58,328 bases of DNA, from assembly GCF_004087835.1 (NCBI RefSeq), contig NZ_CP035122.1, positions 1-58,328 on the forward strand, read 5' to 3'. The notes under the pieces were generated by a model, which made no database searches, had not been told where the DNA came from, and saw only the letters and a list, made by a program, of their open reading frames with translations. Positions 14,751 to 32,784 of this stretch are shown piece after piece (the stretch's first letter is position 1; every line of letters begins with the position of its first letter). This stretch comes from Halorussus pelagicus. GTDB lineage: Archaea; Halobacteriota; Halobacteria; Halobacteriales; Haladaptataceae. The position numbers were made by a program, and so were the translations under genes.

Positions 14751-15557
14751 AGTAGCGATGAGTATGCCTCTACATAAATAGTTGCGGGAACCGTGTGCGA
14801 TATCAAATTCGGTGAATTCTGGGTATAGCAGGCTGATACAGAGAGCACAGTGAAGAGACGTTAGACCGTGGGCAAAGTCACCCTCGGAAGAGACCCCGCG
14901 TGCAAAATGAAAACGCGTAGTTACTCATAGTGTTTCTAATACAGAGTGTAAGCCATGAAAGACACGATTTCAGCGGGGTGAAAAGACGGAGAGTAACACA
15001 GAGCAAGGAAGTAAACGCTGGTCGAAACAAGTATAACGGATTCTTCATCAACCCCCACACCCCGTGTGCGAAATGAAATCGGTAGAGTAGTACGGAACGT
15101 TGCTAACAGTAGAAACGAGAGAAGTCTTGTTAGAGCAGCTAAAACGGTACTTTGTTGGAAGAGCACTTCGCTGAGACATTAATCAAGTAGAAATGATTTG
15201 ACTATAATGACGAGAAATGTGGATATTCATACAATAGCGACAAACTGCAGTGCGGATGTTGTTTAAAGAGTACAGGTATAAAGGTTTCTAATTATATAGC
15301 ATTCTTTAAAATCTACTGTAGAACTATTCTACCTGCTGAAATCCTGCGTTACCCGTGTATTTTGATTGAGTTCGACAGCACCCCACCCACACCTCCTGTC
15401 CAATTTCATTTCGCACACGGGGTGTGGGGGTTCTCTTTCTACCCGACTCTGCTCGCCAATGACAGCCTATACTACAATTGCGAGTACCCCCAGTTTGACT
15501 CTCGTGAATCTGCCGACCGCTTTTTTCACCACTTTCAACCACGATTTCCCCTCTCAC
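14751..15557. other. Replication origin: AT-rich stretch flanked by inverted ORB repeats
   Basis: This is the intergenic region between divergent orc1 and parA. ORB copies: a poor one near 14789-14811, then 14893-14913 and 15058-15079 on the plus strand, and 15403-15424 on the minus strand. Between the last two lies an AT-rich segment (about 15160-15340, with TTCTAATTATATAGC) suited to be the unwinding element. Oppositely oriented ORBs around an AT-rich core, next to orc1, is the standard haloarchaeal origin plan. A short ORF of about 76 codons across here is a shadow. Confidence 0.82.
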
Positions 15558-17258: not shown

Positions 17259-19703
17259 ATGGAGAAAACTATTGAGTGGTTGCGAGACCGGCCGTACTAC
17301 GAAGGACAGATTGTACACCACGATTGTATTCCGGAGACAGACGCCGAAACGACGAGCGTCAATCTTGAGCCGCTCGTTGCCCGTGCGCTTGAGCGACGCG
17401 ATATTGACGAACTTTATCAGCATCAAGCCGATGCCCTTGACGCTATTCGGTCCGGTGATCACGTTGTCCTTGCAACGCCGACCGCGAGCGGAAAAAGTCT
17501 AGCGTACACAGTGCCTACACTTGAACGTGCTTTTGACCACAACGGGAAGACGCTCTACGTTGCCCCGATGACTGCACTTATCAACGACCAAGCAGACACC
17601 CTCGCCGATATCGCCGCTGATCTCGGCTTCGACGCACGCGTCAATGTCGCAACGTATACTGGTGATACATCGAAGCAGGAACGCCGTGACATTCGTGCTC
17701 GACAACCGGATATCGTGTTGACGACGCCCGATATGCTCCACCAGAGTTTCCTCCCGTATGCAAACTCTCCATCCCATTGGCGCTGGCTCTTCCAGCAACT
17801 CAACACTATTGTTATCGACGAAGTCCACGAGTTTCGTGGCATCTTCGGCAGTCACGTCTCACTCATTTTCCGCCGCCTCTCTCGCCTCGCTGAATACCAC
17901 GACTCGACACCCCAGTACGTCTGCTGTTCCGCGACCATCGGCAACCCTATCGAGCATGCGGCCACCGTAACCGGCCAACCCGCAGAACAGTTTAGACTCG
18001 TTGATGACGACGCCAGCGCAACTGGCCCCCGTCACTGGGTTTTCTGGAACCCACCAATCAGAAAAGATGACACAGACGACTCAAAGGATGACGCCGCCGA
18101 CGCTCCTACTGTAGACGCGCCCGACCAGCTAACAGCACCGCCGGTCGAACTCCCTCACCAGAACGAACTCCGTGGCGGCGAACGCCGATCCAATCACCCC
18201 GAGACGGTCCGACTCTTCTGTGACCTCGTCCAGCGCGGATACCAAACTCTTGTCTTCACACGCGCCCGGCAAGGTGCCGAACAATACGCAAACTGGTGTG
18301 ACAACCGGCTTCGAAAACGAGGCGAACACGACCTCGCTGACCAGATCACAGCCTACCACTCGGCTCTCTCCGATGAGCGCCGCACAACCATCGAAAACGA
18401 CCTTCGGAACGGTGACGTTCGTGGTGTCTGGAGTACCAACGCTCTCGAACTCGGTATCGACGTGGGTAGTCTCGACGCTGTCCTTCTTGACGGCCATCCC
18501 GGCACAAGTATGAGCACGTTCCAGCGAGCAGGCCGCGCTGGCCGCGGCCAGAACCCAAGCCTCGTCGTTCTGGTTGCAAGTCCGAACCCACTCGACCAAT
18601 ACTGCATGGCGAACCCTGACGTCCTCTTTGACGGGGAGCCAGAACAAGCAGCAGTCAATCCAGCAAACACACAGATTCTGGACGATCACATCTGCTGTGC
18701 CGCCGACGAACTCTACCTGCGTACCGACGACGACACCTACTTCGGCGATCAGTACCCCGAAACCGTCGGCTCGCTTGACGAAGCAGGCACACTAGAGCGT
18801 TTCAACACGCAACATGGTTCACGTTGGGAATACGTCGAAGACGCCAGCCCGCAACACTCGATGGACATCAGGTCGATTGACGACCGACAGATTGAGTTAT
18901 ACGACCAGCTTCGAGAGACAACTCTGACTACGCTCCCCTTCGGTGATGCCCTCCGTGACGCCCACCCCGGCGCAATCTACCATCACCAGAAAGAAACCTA
19001 TCGCGTTCGAGAAGCCGACTTCGACGCCGACCGCGTCTTTCTTGAATCCGTTGAGACGATGGGATACACCCGCCCACTCACGGAGAAACGGATTACAGTC
19101 GAGGAGACTCTCGAAACCGGACACCTAACATCGAACAAGACAGTCTCCATTAGCTTTGCAGATCTTACTGTAGCCGAGGAGGTCACCGGCTACATGTTGT
19201 ACGACCATCCTGCCGACGAGGACGGCGTCGAACAAACCTTCGATGAGCCGTTACCCGAACGGACAATCCGAACTCGTGGACTCTACTTCACCGTTCCACC
19301 TCACCTAGAACAAGACATCAAGGCCGCAAGCGAGAGTGACGAGGGCTTCCTCGGAAGTATTCACGGTATCGAACACGCCCTTATTTCGCTTTTCCCGCTC
19401 GAAATCCTCTGTGCCCGCCACGATATTGGTGGACTCTCAACGACGTACCACGAGTACACGGACCAGAGTACGATTTTCGTCCACGACGCTCATCCTGGTG
19501 GAGTCGGACTGACACGCGAGGCATACGGCCAACTCGATACGCTTCTCGCCCGGACACTTGAGATGCTTCGCTCCTGTTCCTGTGTAGATGGGTGCCCATC
19601 GTGTATCCACTCCCCTCAGTGTGGAAACGCAAACCGAAGACTAAACAAACAACTCGCAATACAGCTCTTAGAATATCTCTCGGGCACTAGCGGGTACGAG
19701 TGA
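17259..19703 (+). CDS. DEVH-box helicase with DUF1998 cysteine module (MrfA/Hrq1-like)
   Basis: An 814-residue superfamily 2 helicase with Walker A TPTASGKS (73-80), DEVH box (187-190), SATIGNP motif III and GRAGRG motif VI. A C-terminal DUF1998-type zinc site is seen in CSCVDGCPSCIHSPQC (about residues 772-787). This architecture is shared with the MrfA/Hrq1 group, linked to repair of DNA crosslinks, and with helicases near defence islands. A TATAAA about 20 bp upstream of the ATG suggests a leaderless mRNA. It stands alone between the par block and an IS element, so its role on this plasmid is uncertain. Confidence 0.85.
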   Translation: MEKTIEWLRDRPYYEGQIVHHDCIPETDAETTSVNLEPLVARALERRDIDELYQHQADALDAIRSGDHVVLATPTASGKSLAYTVPTLERAFDHNGKTLYVAPMTALINDQADTLADIAADLGFDARVNVATYTGDTSKQERRDIRARQPDIVLTTPDMLHQSFLPYANSPSHWRWLFQQLNTIVIDEVHEFRGIFGSHVSLIFRRLSRLAEYHDSTPQYVCCSATIGNPIEHAATVTGQPAEQFRLVDDDASATGPRHWVFWNPPIRKDDTDDSKDDAADAPTVDAPDQLTAPPVELPHQNELRGGERRSNHPETVRLFCDLVQRGYQTLVFTRARQGAEQYANWCDNRLRKRGEHDLADQITAYHSALSDERRTTIENDLRNGDVRGVWSTNALELGIDVGSLDAVLLDGHPGTSMSTFQRAGRAGRGQNPSLVVLVASPNPLDQYCMANPDVLFDGEPEQAAVNPANTQILDDHICCAADELYLRTDDDTYFGDQYPETVGSLDEAGTLERFNTQHGSRWEYVEDASPQHSMDIRSIDDRQIELYDQLRETTLTTLPFGDALRDAHPGAIYHHQKETYRVREADFDADRVFLESVETMGYTRPLTEKRITVEETLETGHLTSNKTVSISFADLTVAEEVTGYMLYDHPADEDGVEQTFDEPLPERTIRTRGLYFTVPPHLEQDIKAASESDEGFLGSIHGIEHALISLFPLEILCARHDIGGLSTTYHEYTDQSTIFVHDAHPGGVGLTREAYGQLDTLLARTLEMLRSCSCVDGCPSCIHSPQCGNANRRLNKQLAIQLLEYLSGTSGYE

Positions 19704-19714
19704 ACTACCCTAAC

Positions 19715-20955
19715 CTACTCGCTCACGGCTGACGCCATTCGCTCGTTGAGGGTAGGGCTTCCTGTTTCCACGACACGCTTTGCAGATACCGAGGTATCCG
19801 CAGGGAGCGCAGTCTCCACAGGCGTTCCTTCGGAGTGTCCCACTCCTACGTCTTCGAGGCCGCGAGAAAGAATGTTCCACGCCGCGTTCGCGTCCCTGTC
19901 CGCCTCAAACCCGCAGGCGGGACAGGAGTGTTCACGGACCCACAGCGGCTTCTCCGTCTCGACACCGCACGCCGCGCACTCTTTCGTCGTCTCTCTCGGG
20001 TTGACCGCCACGAAGTGCGTCCCTTTACGGGCGCACTTGTATTCGAGCAACGAGAGGAACGTTCGCCACGCTGCCGACGCCGTGTTGCGGCTATTCGACG
20101 GCGATTCCATCATCCCCTTCACGTTCAGGTCTTCGACCGCCACAAGTTCGTACTCCCGAGCGTAGTAGTTCGAGAGCTTGTGGAGGAAGTCGCGCCGTTT
20201 CCGTCGGAGGTCGGCGTGACACTCCGCGACCCGCCGCCGTTGCCCCTCCCAGTTGTTTGACCCGTGCTGTTTCCGCGAGAGTGACCGTTGTTCGAGTTCC
20301 AGTCGCTTCCGTTCGGCCGAGAGGTCGAGCGACCCCACGGCGGTTCCATCGGTGTCGTGGGCGTACGTGAGAATCCCCACGTCGATACCGACGCACCGCT
20401 CGGGATTCGCAGGCGGTTCGGGTGGTTCGTGGTTAACTTTGACGCCGAACGTGGCGAACCACTCGCCCGTCGGCTCTTTCTTGAGCGTGACCTGCTTGAG
20501 TTTCGCGTCGTCGGGGATGGGCCGGTGGAGCCGAATCGGTATATCCGCGAGTTTCGAGAGTGATAGGACAGTCTGACCGCCCTTCTTGTCGAGCTTGAAG
20601 CCAGACTGACTGTAGGTGAAACTGCGGAACTCCCGTGGCGGCTTCCATTTGAGTTGACCGACGCCGTAGCCGTTCTTCTTGAGCGCCGAGAGTCCTTTGA
20701 GGTTGTCGAACAGCCGTTCCACGACGGTTTGGAGAACTTCGAGTACACGTCTGAGAGGCCATCCCACCACTGCTTGGGGTCGGGGAGTTCCGACCGTAGC
20801 GTGGTCATCGACGGCAGTTCGTCGTGTTCGTCTTGGTACTCGTTGGGGCGGTAGAGCGTGTGGTTGTAGAGTTGCCTGCAAATATCGCGGTGGCGGTCCA
20901 ACTCCTCTCGGTGGGCGTCGGACGGCTTGAGACGGTACTTGTAGGCGTAGTACAT
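19715..20955 (-). pseudogene. tnpB: TnpB (IS605 OrfB) with one frameshift
   Basis: TnpB is an RNA-guided nuclease related to Cas12. Translation begins at the ATG at 20955 (MYYAYKYRLKPSDAHREELD), overlapping the tnpA stop. Near 20738 the frame breaks: a single G missing from an AAGGTT context would restore LQTVVERLFDNLKG. Downstream the catalytic core is intact: GIDVGILTY (Asp), VAVEDLNVKGM (Glu), zinc ribbon CAACG...CPACG and DRDANAAWN (Asp). A translation starting further in would still contain the nuclease core but lacks the N-terminal DNA-binding part. Confidence 0.85.
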
Positions 20956-21361
20956 CAACTTTCCCGCTGGTTCTCGACGTACTGTTTCAGCACATCCAGA
21001 GACACCTGTCCCGTCGAGATGAGACAGTACGAGTCGTTCCAGAACGAGTCGCCCCACAGTTCGGTCTTCAGTTCGTCCTCGTACTCGTTTCGGATACGGC
21101 GGACGGTCGCGCCCTTGACCGTGTTGATGAACTTCACGAGGTCCGTGGTGGGTTTCGCTCGGAACAGAATGTGGACGTGGTCGTCCTCTCCGTCGAGATT
21201 CGTCAGTTTGACACCGTACTTGTCCGTGAACCCGTTGATGACCCCACAAATGAATTGGGTTCGTTCTTCGGTTAGCACTCCGCACCGATACTTTGTGGTG
21301 AGTATCAGGTGGTAGTGCAGGAGTACGTCGAATGCGCTCCCGAATCGAGGTCGTATTCCAT
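20955..21361 (-). pseudogene. tnpA: IS200-type transposase TnpA with one frameshift
   Basis: From the ATG at 21361 the frame reads MEYDLDSGAHSTYS, then breaks near 21320. Restoring one base in a CTCC(C)TG context gives the expected continuation (LHYHLILTTKYR) into the open frame from 21278. The remaining part contains the HUH pair (DHVHILF) and the Tyr-bearing WGDSFWNDSYCLIS region of Y1 transposases. Decayed or mis-sequenced. Confidence 0.82.
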
Positions 21362-21530
21362 TAGGTTCGTGCTACTATGCGGTACCCCAATGCAAAACGT
21401 TGCGACTACGTGGGCCTGTGGGCCTGTAACCGTATGGCTGAGAGAACAGGCGATGACGGCGCTGTATCGCTACCCTACTCCGCTTCCCTCGGTCGCTCCG
21501 TTGAGGGTGGGGAATTAGCGCCTATATCCA

Positions 21531-21574
21531 GCTAACCAATGTCGCTAGACGAGACGGGGTCTACATTGGTTAGT
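21531..21574. repeat. Dispersed 45-bp palindrome, copy 1
   Basis: Arms GCTAACCAATG and CATTGGTTAG flank a 22-nt variable centre. It lies directly beyond the right side of the IS605-like element. It is one of 12 copies in the window; see the finding on this family. Confidence 0.85.
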
Positions 21575-21616
21575 GTGAACTACAGAGGAGTCGTTCGACA
21601 GCAGCAAGCGCGACGA

Positions 21617-22288
21617 GGTTTAATCCAACAAGGATGGGGAGGTCTGGAACAGCTAGCGTTTTAACTCGAAACGTGGGGTGTCGGTGCTTCCACTCAATAA
21701 AGATAATCTGGAATAGATAGCATTTTAACTCGAAACGTGGGGTGTTGGTGCTTCCACTCAATAAAGATAGTCTGAAATAGATAGCATTTTAACTCGAAAC
21801 GTGGGGTGTTGGTGCTTCCACTCAATAAAGATAGTCTGGAATAGCTAGCGTTTTAACTCGAAACGTGGGGTGTTGGTGCTTCCACTCAATAAAGATAGTC
21901 TGGAATAGCTAGCGTTTTAACTCGAAACGTGGGGTGTCGGTGCTTCCACTCAATAAAGATAATCTGGAATAGCTAGCATTTTAACTCGAAACGTGGGGTG
22001 TCGGTGCTTCCACTCAATAAAGATAATCTGGAATAGCTAGCATTTTAACTCGAAACGTGGGGTGTCGGTGCTTCCACTCAATAAAGATAATCTGGAATAG
22101 CTAGCATTTTAACTCGAAACGTGGGGTGTCGGTGCTTCCACTCGGCAAAGGTGGTCGAACGGAGCAAATACTGACAAACCACAAGACAGCGGTGGCTTCA
22201 ATCCCGAAAGTGGTCGTCTGGAACTACCGTGTACGAGTTGTTAATAACATGAGGAAGCAATTTCAATCCCACAAAGCTCATTCGGAAT
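21617..22288. repeat. 64-bp satellite and degenerate repeats: relic CRISPR-like array
   Basis: An exact-period 64-bp unit repeats with AACTCGAAACG starting at 21663, 21727, 21791, 21855, 21919, 21983, 22047 and 22111 (8 copies, over 90% alike). Each unit contains a segment beginning GCTTCCACTC and ending ATCTGGAAT (29 nt), which resembles the reverse complement of the common haloarchaeal type I-B CRISPR repeat. Better matches flank the satellite at 22195-22224 (GCTTCAATCC...GTCTGGAAC), about 22257-22288 (TTTCAATCCCACAA) and 21617-21650 (TTTAATCCAACAAGG...GTCTGGAAC). Spacing of 61-69 bp fits repeat plus spacer. It is non-coding, as 64 is not a multiple of 3. Confidence 0.6.
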
Positions 22289-22574
22289 TCTCGGATGTCA
22301 ATAAAGTTTTACTTCCATCCAAATAGACATCTAACTGATAGTATTTTGATCGGAGTATAGATACAAAAATCGGAGTAGAAATAAATTATAACTTTATCAA
22401 AGACGAGTCTGGAATTACATCGGCGTAGGTGTACTACACTAGCGAAACCGTCCAGCTACTCCTCGTCTCCGCCCTCAAATGTTGTCTCTCCTCCCTGCTT
22501 GCTAACCAGTTTTGGTCCTGTCTTGTTAGTGTACGTTCAAACCAGTGCAAAAGATAGACCCTTTCGCACCGAAT

Positions 22575-22960
22575 TTAGCGCCTCTCGCGCCCATTTCTGG
22601 CCATTTCAGCCGAACTATCTTTGTGTCTGACCAATAGCTGGTCTCTGTGGAACGTGTTGTTCTGGCGTTTTAGCGTCGCTTCTACAGATTCGTGGCCATT
22701 TCGGCCAATTTTCGCACTGAGTTCCGATCCCCCGGATAGTCGCATTCGTACACAATTAAATACTACCTTTGTGTTCGGAATGTTGTTCTCGCATCTTAGC
22801 GTCCCTACTGCCAATTCGTAGCCATTTCGGCCAATTTTCGCACCGAGTTCCGATCCCCCGGATAGTCGCATTCGTACACAATTAAATACCAACTTTGTGT
22901 TCGGGATGTTGTTCTCGCATTTTAGCGTCTCTACTGCCAATTCGTAGCCAATTAGTGAAT
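22575..22960. repeat. Three tandem copies of a ~126-bp sequence
   Basis: Two copies (about 22690-22820 and 22821-22950) differ at few positions, each with TTCGGCCAATTTTCGCAC and CCCCCGGATAGTCGCATTCG. A third, more diverged copy precedes them from about 22575. The minus-strand ORF across this region is open because 126 is a multiple of three, but its composition (few acidic residues) is not haloarchaeal, so I do not call a gene. The remaining sequence at 22290-22574 and 22961-23190 shows nothing recognisable. Confidence 0.7.
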
Positions 22961-23197: not shown

Positions 23198-23992
23198 GTG
23201 CAGGAGTCGGTTGTTGATGAGCCCTCTGGTAATTCACGGAGAGAAGACTCGGAAAGCCAGTCAAGTACCGACGAATGGATAGAAGCGTTCCAGCATCTCC
23301 ATACGAGTCTGGAGTTGGCCTGGGACGAAAGTCCAGAGGGGACGCATCGTCTGTATCAACAGGCGCTTGAATGCGTAACCGATGAGAAGAATACGATCGC
23401 AGGCTTACTATTTCGGGATCTCTGGAATCGCCAGAAGACGGTTAATACGAAGTCGGACCTGTTCAATGTCGTCCTGTCGGCAGGCGTCGGATTCGCGGCT
23501 TGCATCGAAATTTCAGAGAACGCACGGGACTCATTCACCAACCAGTTTCAGTCGCTCACTGAGTCGTTTTCGGACCGCGACTCCTACCACGAGATGGTGC
23601 CAAAGCCAACAGTCGAAGCCGTTGCACGGACAGCCGATGCTCTCGCTCGCCTTCGACTCTCCGAGACTGTGATACCCGACGATGTGGCCCGTGCGACTGA
23701 TCTCCATGAGTCGGTCCTCGACCGAATCTGCCACCCGGAACCGGACGACGAGTACGATGCTGACACGGTAGAAACCGGTCGATCAAAAACCCAACGCGAC
23801 CGGATTAAGAACCTGAAACATCTTATCACTGAAATTGAGGAGGACTACTGTGGGGGCGCACCCATTCATGAAGTGATGGTTCGCGCCGACGAAATCGGCA
23901 TGGAGCAGTCGAAGGTTGAACACGAGATTGACAAACTGAAACACAATGGTGAGCTGTATGAACCTTCGACCGACCACCTCCGAACGACGTAG
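23198..23992 (+). CDS. Protein with an MCM C-terminal (lid + winged-helix) domain on an unrelated N-terminus
   Basis: 264 residues. The last ~135 residues align with the C-terminus of the MCM encoded at 24312-26393: both share a lid-like helical segment, a VVETGxSKxxRDRxKNLKxxIxEIE pattern, and the identical end YEPSTDHLRTT. There is no Walker A, so it cannot be a helicase. The N-terminal ~125 residues (WIEAFQHLHTSLELAW onwards) match nothing I know. The only start is GTG at 23198 with GAGGAG directly upstream; the frame is open a little further without a better start, so a lost 5' end is possible. It may modulate MCM or be a recombination remnant. Confidence 0.65.
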   Translation: MQESVVDEPSGNSRREDSESQSSTDEWIEAFQHLHTSLELAWDESPEGTHRLYQQALECVTDEKNTIAGLLFRDLWNRQKTVNTKSDLFNVVLSAGVGFAACIEISENARDSFTNQFQSLTESFSDRDSYHEMVPKPTVEAVARTADALARLRLSETVIPDDVARATDLHESVLDRICHPEPDDEYDADTVETGRSKTQRDRIKNLKHLITEIEEDYCGGAPIHEVMVRADEIGMEQSKVEHEIDKLKHNGELYEPSTDHLRTT

Positions 23993-24311: not shown

Positions 24312-26393
24312 ATGGCACGAGCGGAGAACACGGAACTCATCGACAACTTCGAGCAGTTCTACCGGCGGTACTACAGCGACGAAATCGGCCGCCTCGCACA
24401 GAACTACCCTATCGACCAGCGGTCGCTCCATATCGACTGGACCGACCTCTACCGCTACGACTCGGACCTCGCCGACGACTTCCTCTCGCAACCCGAACAG
24501 TTACGCGAGTACGCAGAAGAGGCGCTACGACTCTACGACCTCCCCGTAGACATAAACCTCGGACAAGCGCACGTCCGCGTCGAAAACCTCGACAAAACGA
24601 CCGATATCCACGAGATACGGTCCCGGCATCTCCATACGCTCGTCGCGGTCGAGGGCACCGTCGAGCGTGCCTCTGGGGTCCAGAGCCAACTCCAAGAGAC
24701 AGCCTTCGAGTGTCAGCGATGCGGGACACTCACCTACATGGTTCAGGGCGGCGAACAGGAACCCCACGAGTGTCAGGGCTGTGAGCGACAGGGACGGTTC
24801 CAGATTAACTATGACCGGTCGGAGTTCGTAGACGCCCAGACGCTCGTCGTGAAACAGCGCCCAGCGGACGCGACGACCGACGATGGCGTAAGCATCGAAG
24901 TCCGAATCGAGGACGACCTTGCAGGCGAGGTCACAGCGGGCGACACCGTGACCGCGACGGGCGTCCTCCACATGCTCGATAGCGACGGCCGAATGGACGC
25001 AACGGTCCCCGACAAGTACCTCAGTGGCGTTTCGATCCGGCCACGGCCCGACGACTCTTACAGCCTCGAAATTTCTGACGACGACAAGAAAGACATAGTC
25101 GAACTCTCCCAAACGGACGACATCTACGAGCGGATGGTCGGCTCCTACGCACCACGCGTCTACGGCTACGACCAAGCAAAGCTGGCGATTATCCTGCAAC
25201 TGTTCTCCGGCGTGACGAAGCATCTACCCGACGACTCGCGGATTCGGGGTAGCATCCACGTCGGGCTTATCGGCGACCCCGGCACCGCCAAGAGCCGCCT
25301 GCTCGACTACGCTGGCCGACTCGCACCCCGAACCGTCTCGGCATCGGGAACGGGGAGTTCGTCGGTTGGGCTAACGGCGTCTATGGAACGCATCAGCGGC
25401 GGCCAAGAGACGTGGGCGGTCAAAGCGGGTACACTCCCGCTCGCCGACCACGGTCTCGCTCGGTTGGACGACCTCGGCAAATTCAGCAGCGACGAACGCA
25501 AAGCACTCGAATCAGTGCTTGAAGAGCAGACCGTCGAAATCAGCAAGGCATCGGTTCAAAAGGAGTTGCAGGCGCGAGCGGCAGTCCTCGCAGCGGCGAA
25601 CCCCAAATACGGCCGCTTCGACCAGTACGAACCAATTGGGGAGCAGGTGGACCTCGAACCGGGTCTGATTTCGCAGTTCGACCTGCTGTTCACCGTGACC
25701 GACCAACCGGATGAACAGCACGACGAACGTCTCGCAGACCACGTCTTGCAGGCGAACTACGCGGGTGAACTCCACACCCAACGCTCGGAGATGTCCGCAC
25801 CGACCATTACCGAGACGGAGGTCGAGGAAGCCGCCGAACAGGTCGCACCCGAAATCGACCCCGACCTGCTCCGGAAGCATATCGCCTACGCACGTCGCAA
25901 CTGCTTCCCGACCATGACCAACGAGGCGAAAGACACCATCGAGGACTTCTACGTGGACCTCCGGACAAAGGGGGCCGACGAGGACGCGCCGGTCCCCGTG
26001 ACTGCCCGGAAACTGGAAGCCTTGGTCCGACTCTCCGAAGCGAGTGCGCGCGTGCGGCTTTCAGACGAGGTAGAAAAGGAGGACGCCGAACGTGCCGTCA
26101 AGATTACGCGCTCGTGTCTACAGGACATTGGAGTTGATCCCGAAACAGGCCAGTTCGACGCAGACGTAGTGGAAACTGGAACCTCAAAAAGTGAGCGCGA
26201 CCGGATGAAGAACTTGAAACAGATTATCGCCGAGATTGAAGACAACCATCAGGAGGGCGCACCAATCGAGAAGGTCAAAGAGCGAAGTCATGAAATCAAA
26301 ATAGAGAGGGAGAGTTTTGAAGATGAAATTGACCACCTGAAACACAAGGGTGAGGTCTACGAACCCTCCACAGACCACCTCCGAACGACATAG
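24312..26393 (+). CDS. mcm: Plasmid-encoded MCM replicative helicase, divergent active site
   Basis: 693 residues with full MCM layout: N-terminal domain with zinc finger (Cys 134/137/154/157), OB-fold, AAA+ core and C-terminal winged helix. Walker A is GDPGTAKSR (321-329) and sensor 1 is AAANPKYGRFD (Asn 430). Walker B reads RLDDLGKF instead of the usual DEhDKM, and the arginine finger motif reads SQFDLLF, with Gln 455 where SRFD is nearly invariant. It probably unwinds plasmid DNA or acts in mixed hexamers with the host MCM. The Gln could impair trans-acting ATP hydrolysis. Confidence 0.92.
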   Translation: MARAENTELIDNFEQFYRRYYSDEIGRLAQNYPIDQRSLHIDWTDLYRYDSDLADDFLSQPEQLREYAEEALRLYDLPVDINLGQAHVRVENLDKTTDIHEIRSRHLHTLVAVEGTVERASGVQSQLQETAFECQRCGTLTYMVQGGEQEPHECQGCERQGRFQINYDRSEFVDAQTLVVKQRPADATTDDGVSIEVRIEDDLAGEVTAGDTVTATGVLHMLDSDGRMDATVPDKYLSGVSIRPRPDDSYSLEISDDDKKDIVELSQTDDIYERMVGSYAPRVYGYDQAKLAIILQLFSGVTKHLPDDSRIRGSIHVGLIGDPGTAKSRLLDYAGRLAPRTVSASGTGSSSVGLTASMERISGGQETWAVKAGTLPLADHGLARLDDLGKFSSDERKALESVLEEQTVEISKASVQKELQARAAVLAAANPKYGRFDQYEPIGEQVDLEPGLISQFDLLFTVTDQPDEQHDERLADHVLQANYAGELHTQRSEMSAPTITETEVEEAAEQVAPEIDPDLLRKHIAYARRNCFPTMTNEAKDTIEDFYVDLRTKGADEDAPVPVTARKLEALVRLSEASARVRLSDEVEKEDAERAVKITRSCLQDIGVDPETGQFDADVVETGTSKSERDRMKNLKQIIAEIEDNHQEGAPIEKVKERSHEIKIERESFEDEIDHLKHKGEVYEPSTDHLRTT

Positions 26394-31759: not shown

Positions 31760-31918
31760 CTTTCAATCCAGCTTCGGTCCGATTACGACGGTTGAGGCAG
31801 GCGTCACCCGGATGGTCTCGAACTTTCAATCCGGCCTCGGTCCGATTACGACGTTCCCAATCCCGGTAGAGTTCTGCCGCGCCGCAGACTTTCAATCCGG
31901 CTTCGGTCCGATTACGAC
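31760..31918 (-). CRISPR. Mini CRISPR array 3 (second repeat type), 3 repeats, 2 spacers
   Basis: 30-bp repeats at 31760-31789, 31823-31852 and 31889-31918 (CTTTCAATCCGG and TCGGTCCGATTACGAC parts) with one mismatch each in the first two. Spacers are 33 and 36 bp. On the minus strand the repeat begins GTCGTAATCGG and ends GGATTGAAAG. The repeat is unrelated to arrays 1 and 2. An intact cas2 and truncated cas1 lie 0.2 kb away, so this is the remnant of a separate, probably type I-B, locus. The likely leader is 31919-32114 on the cas2 side. Confidence 0.88.
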
Positions 31919-32373: not shown

Positions 32374-32784
32374 CTACCGCACCGTCGTCGGACTATACTC
32401 TTTGAGTCCGAGAACGTGCTTCGACACCTGATAGCACTCGGTGCGAATCCAACGACGCCACGAAATCGACCGCCCGATACCCGGATGCTTCCGCGTCTCT
32501 GATAACCGCTCGTCAAACGAATGCCGGAGCAGACGCTTCCCGTCGTCGGTCAACAAGACCGCTCGGCCTTCCTCCTCGAAATCTGCTGGCTGTAGCTGGC
32601 TCTGTCGCGTGAGCGAGAGCAAGAGTCGGTCAGTGAGGAGTGGCTTGAAGATCTCTGCGATGTCGAGACTTAGACTGTATCGGCGCTCGTGAGGCTCGTG
32701 GAGAAAGCTAATCGTCTGGTTCAGTCGAGTGTGGTAGAGTTCCGTGACTGTGGAAGCGTAGACGAGTGCGTTCAAGTAGCTCAT
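32374..32784 (-). pseudogene. cas1: C-terminal half of a second Cas1 (headless)
   Basis: 136 residues matching the C-terminal catalytic half of Cas1: SYLNALVYASTVTELYH, FLHEPHERRYSLSLD (metal-ligand His), IAEIFKPLLTDRLL (Glu), and the usual tail. The N-terminal beta domain and the first catalytic Glu motif are missing. Immediately upstream the sequence switches to an unrelated frame, so recombination has cut the gene. It should be inactive as an integrase. Confidence 0.85.

Follow-up and report, generated by a model that had tools for sequence, protein, structure and literature searches.

A probable relic of a haloarchaeal type I-B CRISPR array in which one repeat-spacer unit has expanded into an eightfold satellite

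The window, a stretch of 58,328 nucleotides, is the entire contig C4 of a four-contig haloarchaeal genome of 3.49 Mb. The contig carries the replicon genes cdc6, parA and mcm, and is probably a plasmid. The interval between cdc6 and parA contains an inverted repeat of 33 nt with 97% complementarity (15050-15082 and 15400-15432), a likely replication origin. A type I-D cas set (Cas6, Cas10d/Csc3, Csc2, Csc1, Cas3', Cas4, Cas1 and Cas2) is also present on the contig, flanked by two arrays with spacers of 39-45 nt. The chromosome carries a complete type I-B system: Cas6, Cas8b/Csh1, Cas3 and Cas1 were identified by family search, and Cas7, Cas5 and Cas4 were assigned by reading the open reading frames between the genes found in this way. 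Intact arrays with the repeat GTTTCAGC[AC]GAACCCTTGTGGGTTTGAAGC are found beside the chromosomal system, elsewhere on the chromosome and on contig C2. The initial annotation had spoken only of a resident I-D system. This picture does not hold, given the complete I-B system of the chromosome and a ruined I-B-type cas1, accompanied by cas2, on the plasmid.

The locus under study lies on the minus strand between an IS200/IS605 element and mcm genes, and no intact cas gene adjoins it. Its parts, and two neighbouring features, are as follows.

21618..22289, minus strand: the whole putative degenerate type I-B CRISPR array, with 11 repeat positions and 10 spacers (one spacer eight times)
21643..22143, minus strand: 64-bp satellite (TRF, 7.8 copies, 97%)
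21618..21650, minus strand: Rleft, decayed repeat at the left end, with a 3-nt insertion; scores above all background for an I-B variant and enters the hybrid test
21651..21685, minus strand: leftmost copy of spacer S (35 nt); copies recur every 64 bp, the last at 22099-22133
21686..21714, minus strand: first satellite repeat Rs (29 nt); further repeats start at 21750, 21814, 21878, 21942, 22006 and 22070
22134..22165, minus strand: R3, decayed repeat that borders the satellite on the right; contains GGTGGTC at the putative crossover
22166..22194, minus strand: spacer S9, unique; no exact 20-mer match in viral contigs
22195..22224, minus strand: R2, the best-preserved I-B repeat (25/30)
22225..22259, minus strand: spacer S10, unique; no exact 20-mer match in viral contigs
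22260..22289, minus strand: R1, I-B repeat at the expected leader end (20/30)
19693..21536, minus strand: IS200/IS605 element (tnpA, tnpB), a neighbour about 80 bp to the left of the array and outside it
32374..32784, minus strand: N-truncated type I-B-like cas1, with cas2 overlapping just downstream, 10 kb from the array

The start-to-start distances between repeats are 68, 64 (seven times), 61 and 65 bp, in agreement with the spacing of 61-69 bp that had been claimed for the flanking I-B-like elements. Tandem Repeats Finder placed the 64-bp satellite at 21643-22143, with 7.8 copies, 97% matches and no indels, which bears out the eight near-identical units described at the outset. The proposed partition of the unit into 29 repeat-like and 35 spacer-like nucleotides was also correct, and the satellite consists of seven near-identical repeats and eight near-identical copies of the 35-nt "spacer". 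The seven full units differ from one another at only five of the 64 sites, of which two belong to the repeat-like part and three to the spacer-like part; adjacent units have states in common at these sites, as in ordinary tandem expansion. The unit length is not a multiple of 3, and RNA of the unit folded no better than shuffled sequences.

As the reference for type I-B we used the 30-nt haloarchaeal repeat GTTTCAGACGAACCCTTGTGGGATTGAAGC and its variants, whose reverse complement is matched by the array. R2 agrees with this reverse complement at 25 of 30 positions and is the best site on either strand of the contig; R1, in the same orientation and 65 bp away, is the second best (20/30). Unrelated sites in the contig reached 18 at most. 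With a profile built from 39 I-B repeats, R2 gave an E-value of 0.00014, as against 0.25 or higher for the reversed contig and three rearranged copies. Moreover, the score of Rleft against the closest natural I-B variant exceeds that of every background position in the contig, and the top scores for this variant within 21500-22700 all fall on the repeats of the array, with the exception of an alignment of R2 that is shifted. A candidate for one more decayed repeat, at 22385-22414 (p of about 0.005-0.02), is not claimed.

Taken alone, R3 and Rs are only modestly similar to I-B repeats, with p of about 0.01 by shuffling and of 0.0005-0.004 per position in the contig scan. When the 64-bp unit was treated as a circle, the I-B consensus, the I-B variant, R1, R2 and R3 all aligned to the same strand in nearly the same register out of 128 possible, in tests that are not independent of one another, as R1, R2, R3 and the I-B consensus are mutually homologous. 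Because Rs alone is modest, its link to CRISPR is drawn from the register, the shared ends and the chain that leads from Rs through R3 to R2. In shuffle tests most pairs of repeats were related and no pair of spacers was; S, S9 and S10 are thus mutually unrelated, though S occurs eight times. Taken together, the register, scan and shuffle tests make CRISPR ancestry much the best reading of the 64-bp unit at the level of sequence. The initial annotation had staked its reading on repeats that score better than random and on degenerate I-B-like elements on both flanks. The former proved true of R2, R1 and Rleft by a wide margin and of R3 and Rs modestly and in register; the latter is borne out by R2 and R1 on one side and Rleft, above background, on the other. 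R2, R1 and Rleft can be assigned to the I-B repeat family, R3 and Rs weakly so. Regular spacing (61-68 bp) and unrelated spacers are as in a CRISPR array. The near-identity of repeats seen in an intact array is missing, however: R1, R2, R3, Rs and Rleft all differ from one another, which argues for a relic rather than an intact array.

When 21600-22560 was searched by blastn against 382 genomes of the order, nearly all matches were I-B CRISPR repeats that aligned to R2, the best of them with 89% identity over 35 nt. R2 begins with GTTCCAGACGA, and intact arrays of that variant occur in other haloarchaea; one such repeat, GTTCCAGACGAACCCTTGAGGGATTGAAGC of genome G276, is matched by R2 at 26 of 30 positions. 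We also considered an I-D ancestry for R2 and rejected it, since the match to the plasmid I-D repeat (19/31) is lower than that to the I-B repeat, the two kinds of repeat being themselves somewhat similar. Rfam gave no match at gathering scores anywhere in the window.

The sequence of Rs itself points to how the satellite may have arisen. On the plus strand, and with the preceding base included, R3 begins TGCTTCCACTCGGCAAAGGTGGTC, and Rleft continues into the spacer as GGTCTGGAACAG; when the two are joined at their shared GGTC, the hybrid TGCTTCCACTCGGCAAAGGTGGTCTGGAACAG results. The satellite reads TGCTTCCACTCAATAAAGATAATCTGGAATAG at this position and is identical to the hybrid at 25 of 32 sites without gaps. 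Taken singly, R3 matches Rs at 20 sites and Rleft at 16, and a score of 25 was not attained by any of 20,000 shuffled parent pairs. At all seven differences the hybrid has G or C and the satellite A or T, a direction from G:C to A:T that assumes that the flanking repeats retain the older state. Judged by these matches, Rs is best read as a recombinant with the head of R3 and the tail of Rleft, joined at GGTC. Unequal recombination or slippage between the two repeats on either side of one spacer would be expected to yield a hybrid of this kind. The exact crossover point is one that we infer, and any tandem duplication with its edges within repeats would also leave a hybrid-looking repeat.

The following course of events would account for the locus. 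Upkeep of the array may have ceased, after which unequal crossing-over or replication slippage would have joined R3 to Rleft at the GGTC common to both, so producing a second copy of the repeat-spacer unit. The repeat thus formed would then have acquired its G:C to A:T changes, and the 64-bp homology would have allowed the array to grow to seven repeats and eight copies of the spacer while homogenising to some extent. The units agree with one another at about 97%, whereas Rs has diverged much further from its I-B relatives; the expansion therefore appears to be later than the decay of the repeat, unless gene conversion reset the clock. The earlier suggestion that the last unit of the array had expanded by unequal recombination stands as regards the mechanism, which the hybrid Rs fits; the unit that expanded is an inner one, so that "last" is not demonstrable.

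Spacer duplication through misaligned neighbouring repeats, which duplicates a repeat-spacer unit, has been inferred with SpacerPlacer (PMC11472070), and in a CRISPRCasdb dataset about 3% of the spacers are candidates for duplication (PMC11472070). Single spacer duplications were found in the host's own I-B array and in genomes G276 and G313. These amount to one extra copy; the present satellite, with about eight copies of one spacer, is far above the duplications in the arrays that we checked. The duplication in G313 (contig C4, L044 1-531) is an exact tandem duplication of one repeat-spacer unit in an I-B array, and the repeat at the end of that array finishes CTTTCGGGATTGAAGC, its 3' half being identical to that of R2.

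The intact I-B arrays of the host have a repeat variant different from that of the relic, and among the family genomes searched the GTTCCAGACGA pattern was found only in the window itself. Because of this absence, the array probably stems from another lineage or from a plasmid-borne I-B locus that has been lost. The match of the truncated plasmid cas1 to the I-B Cas1 model is confined to positions 188-321, and the product of the gene is 46% identical to the I-B Cas1 of the host and 29% identical to the I-D Cas1 of the plasmid. The cas1-cas2 remnant speaks in favour of a lost plasmid-borne I-B locus as the source, and it is possibly what is left of the cas genes that once served the array. Beside it, at 31760-31918, there is an array of three repeats of a different sequence (minus strand GTCGTAATCGGACCGAAGCCGGATTGAAAG), at distances of 63 and 66 bp; together they form a second CRISPR ruin on the plasmid (31760-32784).

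The satellite was not found by blastn in 28 genomes of the family or in about 390 of the order; plasmids gave only chance matches of 34-35 nt, and exact patterns of the satellite were absent from viral contigs and GTDB contigs. Its occurrence in many replicons that lack CRISPR-like flanks would have spoken against a CRISPR origin, as the initial annotation had recognised, and it was seen in none of the genomes searched.

Several features bear on whether the array could still act. Inspection of the unaligned sequence to the right of R1 did not reveal the leader motif AATGTTGATGTG...GGCATG that is common to four I-B leaders of the host, and no I-B cas genes lie beside the array. The satellite repeat has GTGGAAGC in place of the crRNA 5' handle ATTGAAGC, which R2 retains. 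Exact 20-mers of S, S9 and S10 were absent from viral contigs, searches for protospacers in phages gave chance matches only, and the 22-nt core of S has no other copy in its own genome at up to three mismatches. S has its best near-match (27/30 in the core) in an ardC-like gene found on haloarchaeal plasmids, but without a TTC PAM, with several mismatches in the seed and at an E-value near chance for the number of genomes searched. There, S weakly resembles the codons for SAFYLETW (L062 1034-1075, on contig C45 of G103). Among eight plasmid homologues of the ardC-like gene, none matched S better than the G103 gene and none had an adjoining TTC PAM. Two further matches, in G005 (L063 and L064), are near an nrdR-like gene and look like chance. 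Because the leader motif was not seen, the 5' handle is altered and no acceptable target was found, the array most likely does nothing now and would be an inert relic. Overall, we consider it quite likely, from the arrangement and similarity of its parts, that the locus is the relic of a haloarchaeal type I-B array, with one repeat-spacer unit expanded to an eightfold satellite and most likely inert. Four different decayed repeats (R1, R2, R3 and Rleft) and three different spacers can still be recognised in it. The original proposal of a fossil CRISPR array amplified as a repeat-spacer unit is largely upheld by the flanks, the register and the hybrid Rs.

A complete I-B system on the chromosome and the near-match of S in an ardC-like plasmid gene leave some room for an array that still works, in which many copies of one crRNA or CreA-like RNA would be used by the I-B Cas6 and Cascade of the host against a gene of competing plasmids or for regulation; degenerate haloarchaeal I-B repeats are indeed functional in CreTA modules (PMC9458426). 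However, the altered handle and the leader motif not seen, the ardC-like match near chance and without a TTC PAM, and the absence of any exact match in viral contigs weigh against it, and the Cas6 of a close relative is reported to leave heterologous degenerated repeats unprocessed (PMC9458426); we regard continued function as unlikely. A particular form of this idea is that the unit is kept by selection, eight copies giving a high dose of crRNA, or of a CreA-like RNA, against the ardC-like gene of competing plasmids by way of a Cas6 that tolerates drift. We think this very unlikely; if it were true, the plasmid would hold a one-target "dosage" array and not a memory.

It is likewise very doubtful that the satellite, whether born of CRISPR or not, serves plasmid maintenance as iterons or a centromere-like site. 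The replicon does carry cdc6, parA and mcm, and the satellite lies in an AT-richer non-coding stretch before mcm, but the inverted repeat between cdc6 and parA is the better origin candidate. Iterons would be direct repeats at an origin near the initiator gene; here cdc6 and the inverted repeat lie at 13.4-15.4 kb, at least 6 kb away. In addition, the satellite has no long internal inverted repeat, none of its 11-mers recurs elsewhere on the contig, and it is not common to related plasmids. The idea of the initial annotation that the units had been reused as iterons therefore finds no support. Finally, the satellite could be an ordinary tandem repeat that arose beside two I-B repeats which are genuine but stray, with a similarity to I-B that is due to chance, as Rs alone reaches only p of about 0.01 against the I-B consensus. 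The repeats on both sides, the common register of five queries and the 25/32 match of the R3/Rleft hybrid make this highly improbable, and leave the expanded array relic as the reading that we prefer.

The relic resembles other haloarchaeal I-B arrays in the sequence of R2, R1 and Rleft, in its period of 61-68 bp, in its single polarity and in its distinct spacers S, S9 and S10. It differs from them in that all repeats are decayed, the leader motif was not seen, no intact cas genes are adjacent and one unit is present eight times. The vestigial locus of Haloquadratum walsbyi HBSQ001 is likewise a haloarchaeal array remnant that followed the loss of cas genes (PMC3119063, PMC3404096); that locus, however, still has the leader with the first repeat and lost part of its length by deletion (PMC3119063, PMC3404096), whereas in the present array one unit has been amplified and the repeats have drifted. 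The ectopic repeats of CreTA are also degenerate haloarchaeal I-B repeats outside a regular array (PMC9458426), but they number one or two and are linked with a toxin RNA as well as a cas locus (PMC9458426), in contrast to the 11 repeat positions, with no adjacent cas gene, found here. On contig C5 of G362 a drifted I-B array has, as here, mutations of its own in each repeat; unlike the present case, most of its repeats are still at 24-28/30, no unit is amplified and cas genes are adjacent. This locus (L043) combines I-B cas genes with a long array mutated in almost every repeat. No Cas1 was among the open reading frames listed for this stretch, so that the repeats may be drifting at a locus deficient in adaptation.

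Neither vestigial CRISPR arrays nor single duplications of a spacer are new in themselves; the present case is new in degree and not in kind. A limited keyword search of the literature found vestigial arrays and no CRISPR-derived satellite. A CRISPR unit turned satellite, with its apparent parental repeats preserved on both sides, would be an intermediate, still readable, on the way from immune memory to plain tandem DNA. It illustrates one fate of abandoned plasmid arrays and is consistent with spacers being duplicated through slippage between repeats. Automatic searches may miss or misname such loci.

Two further features lie on the mcm side of the array. Direct repeats of 126 bp (2.3 copies, about 90% identical) occupy 22655-22950, between the array and the mcm genes. 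The open reading frame at 23198-23992 encodes the C-terminal part of MCM only and directly precedes the full-length plasmid mcm at 24312-26393; its DNA is about 80% identical to C1:1110414-1110656, presumably the chromosomal mcm.
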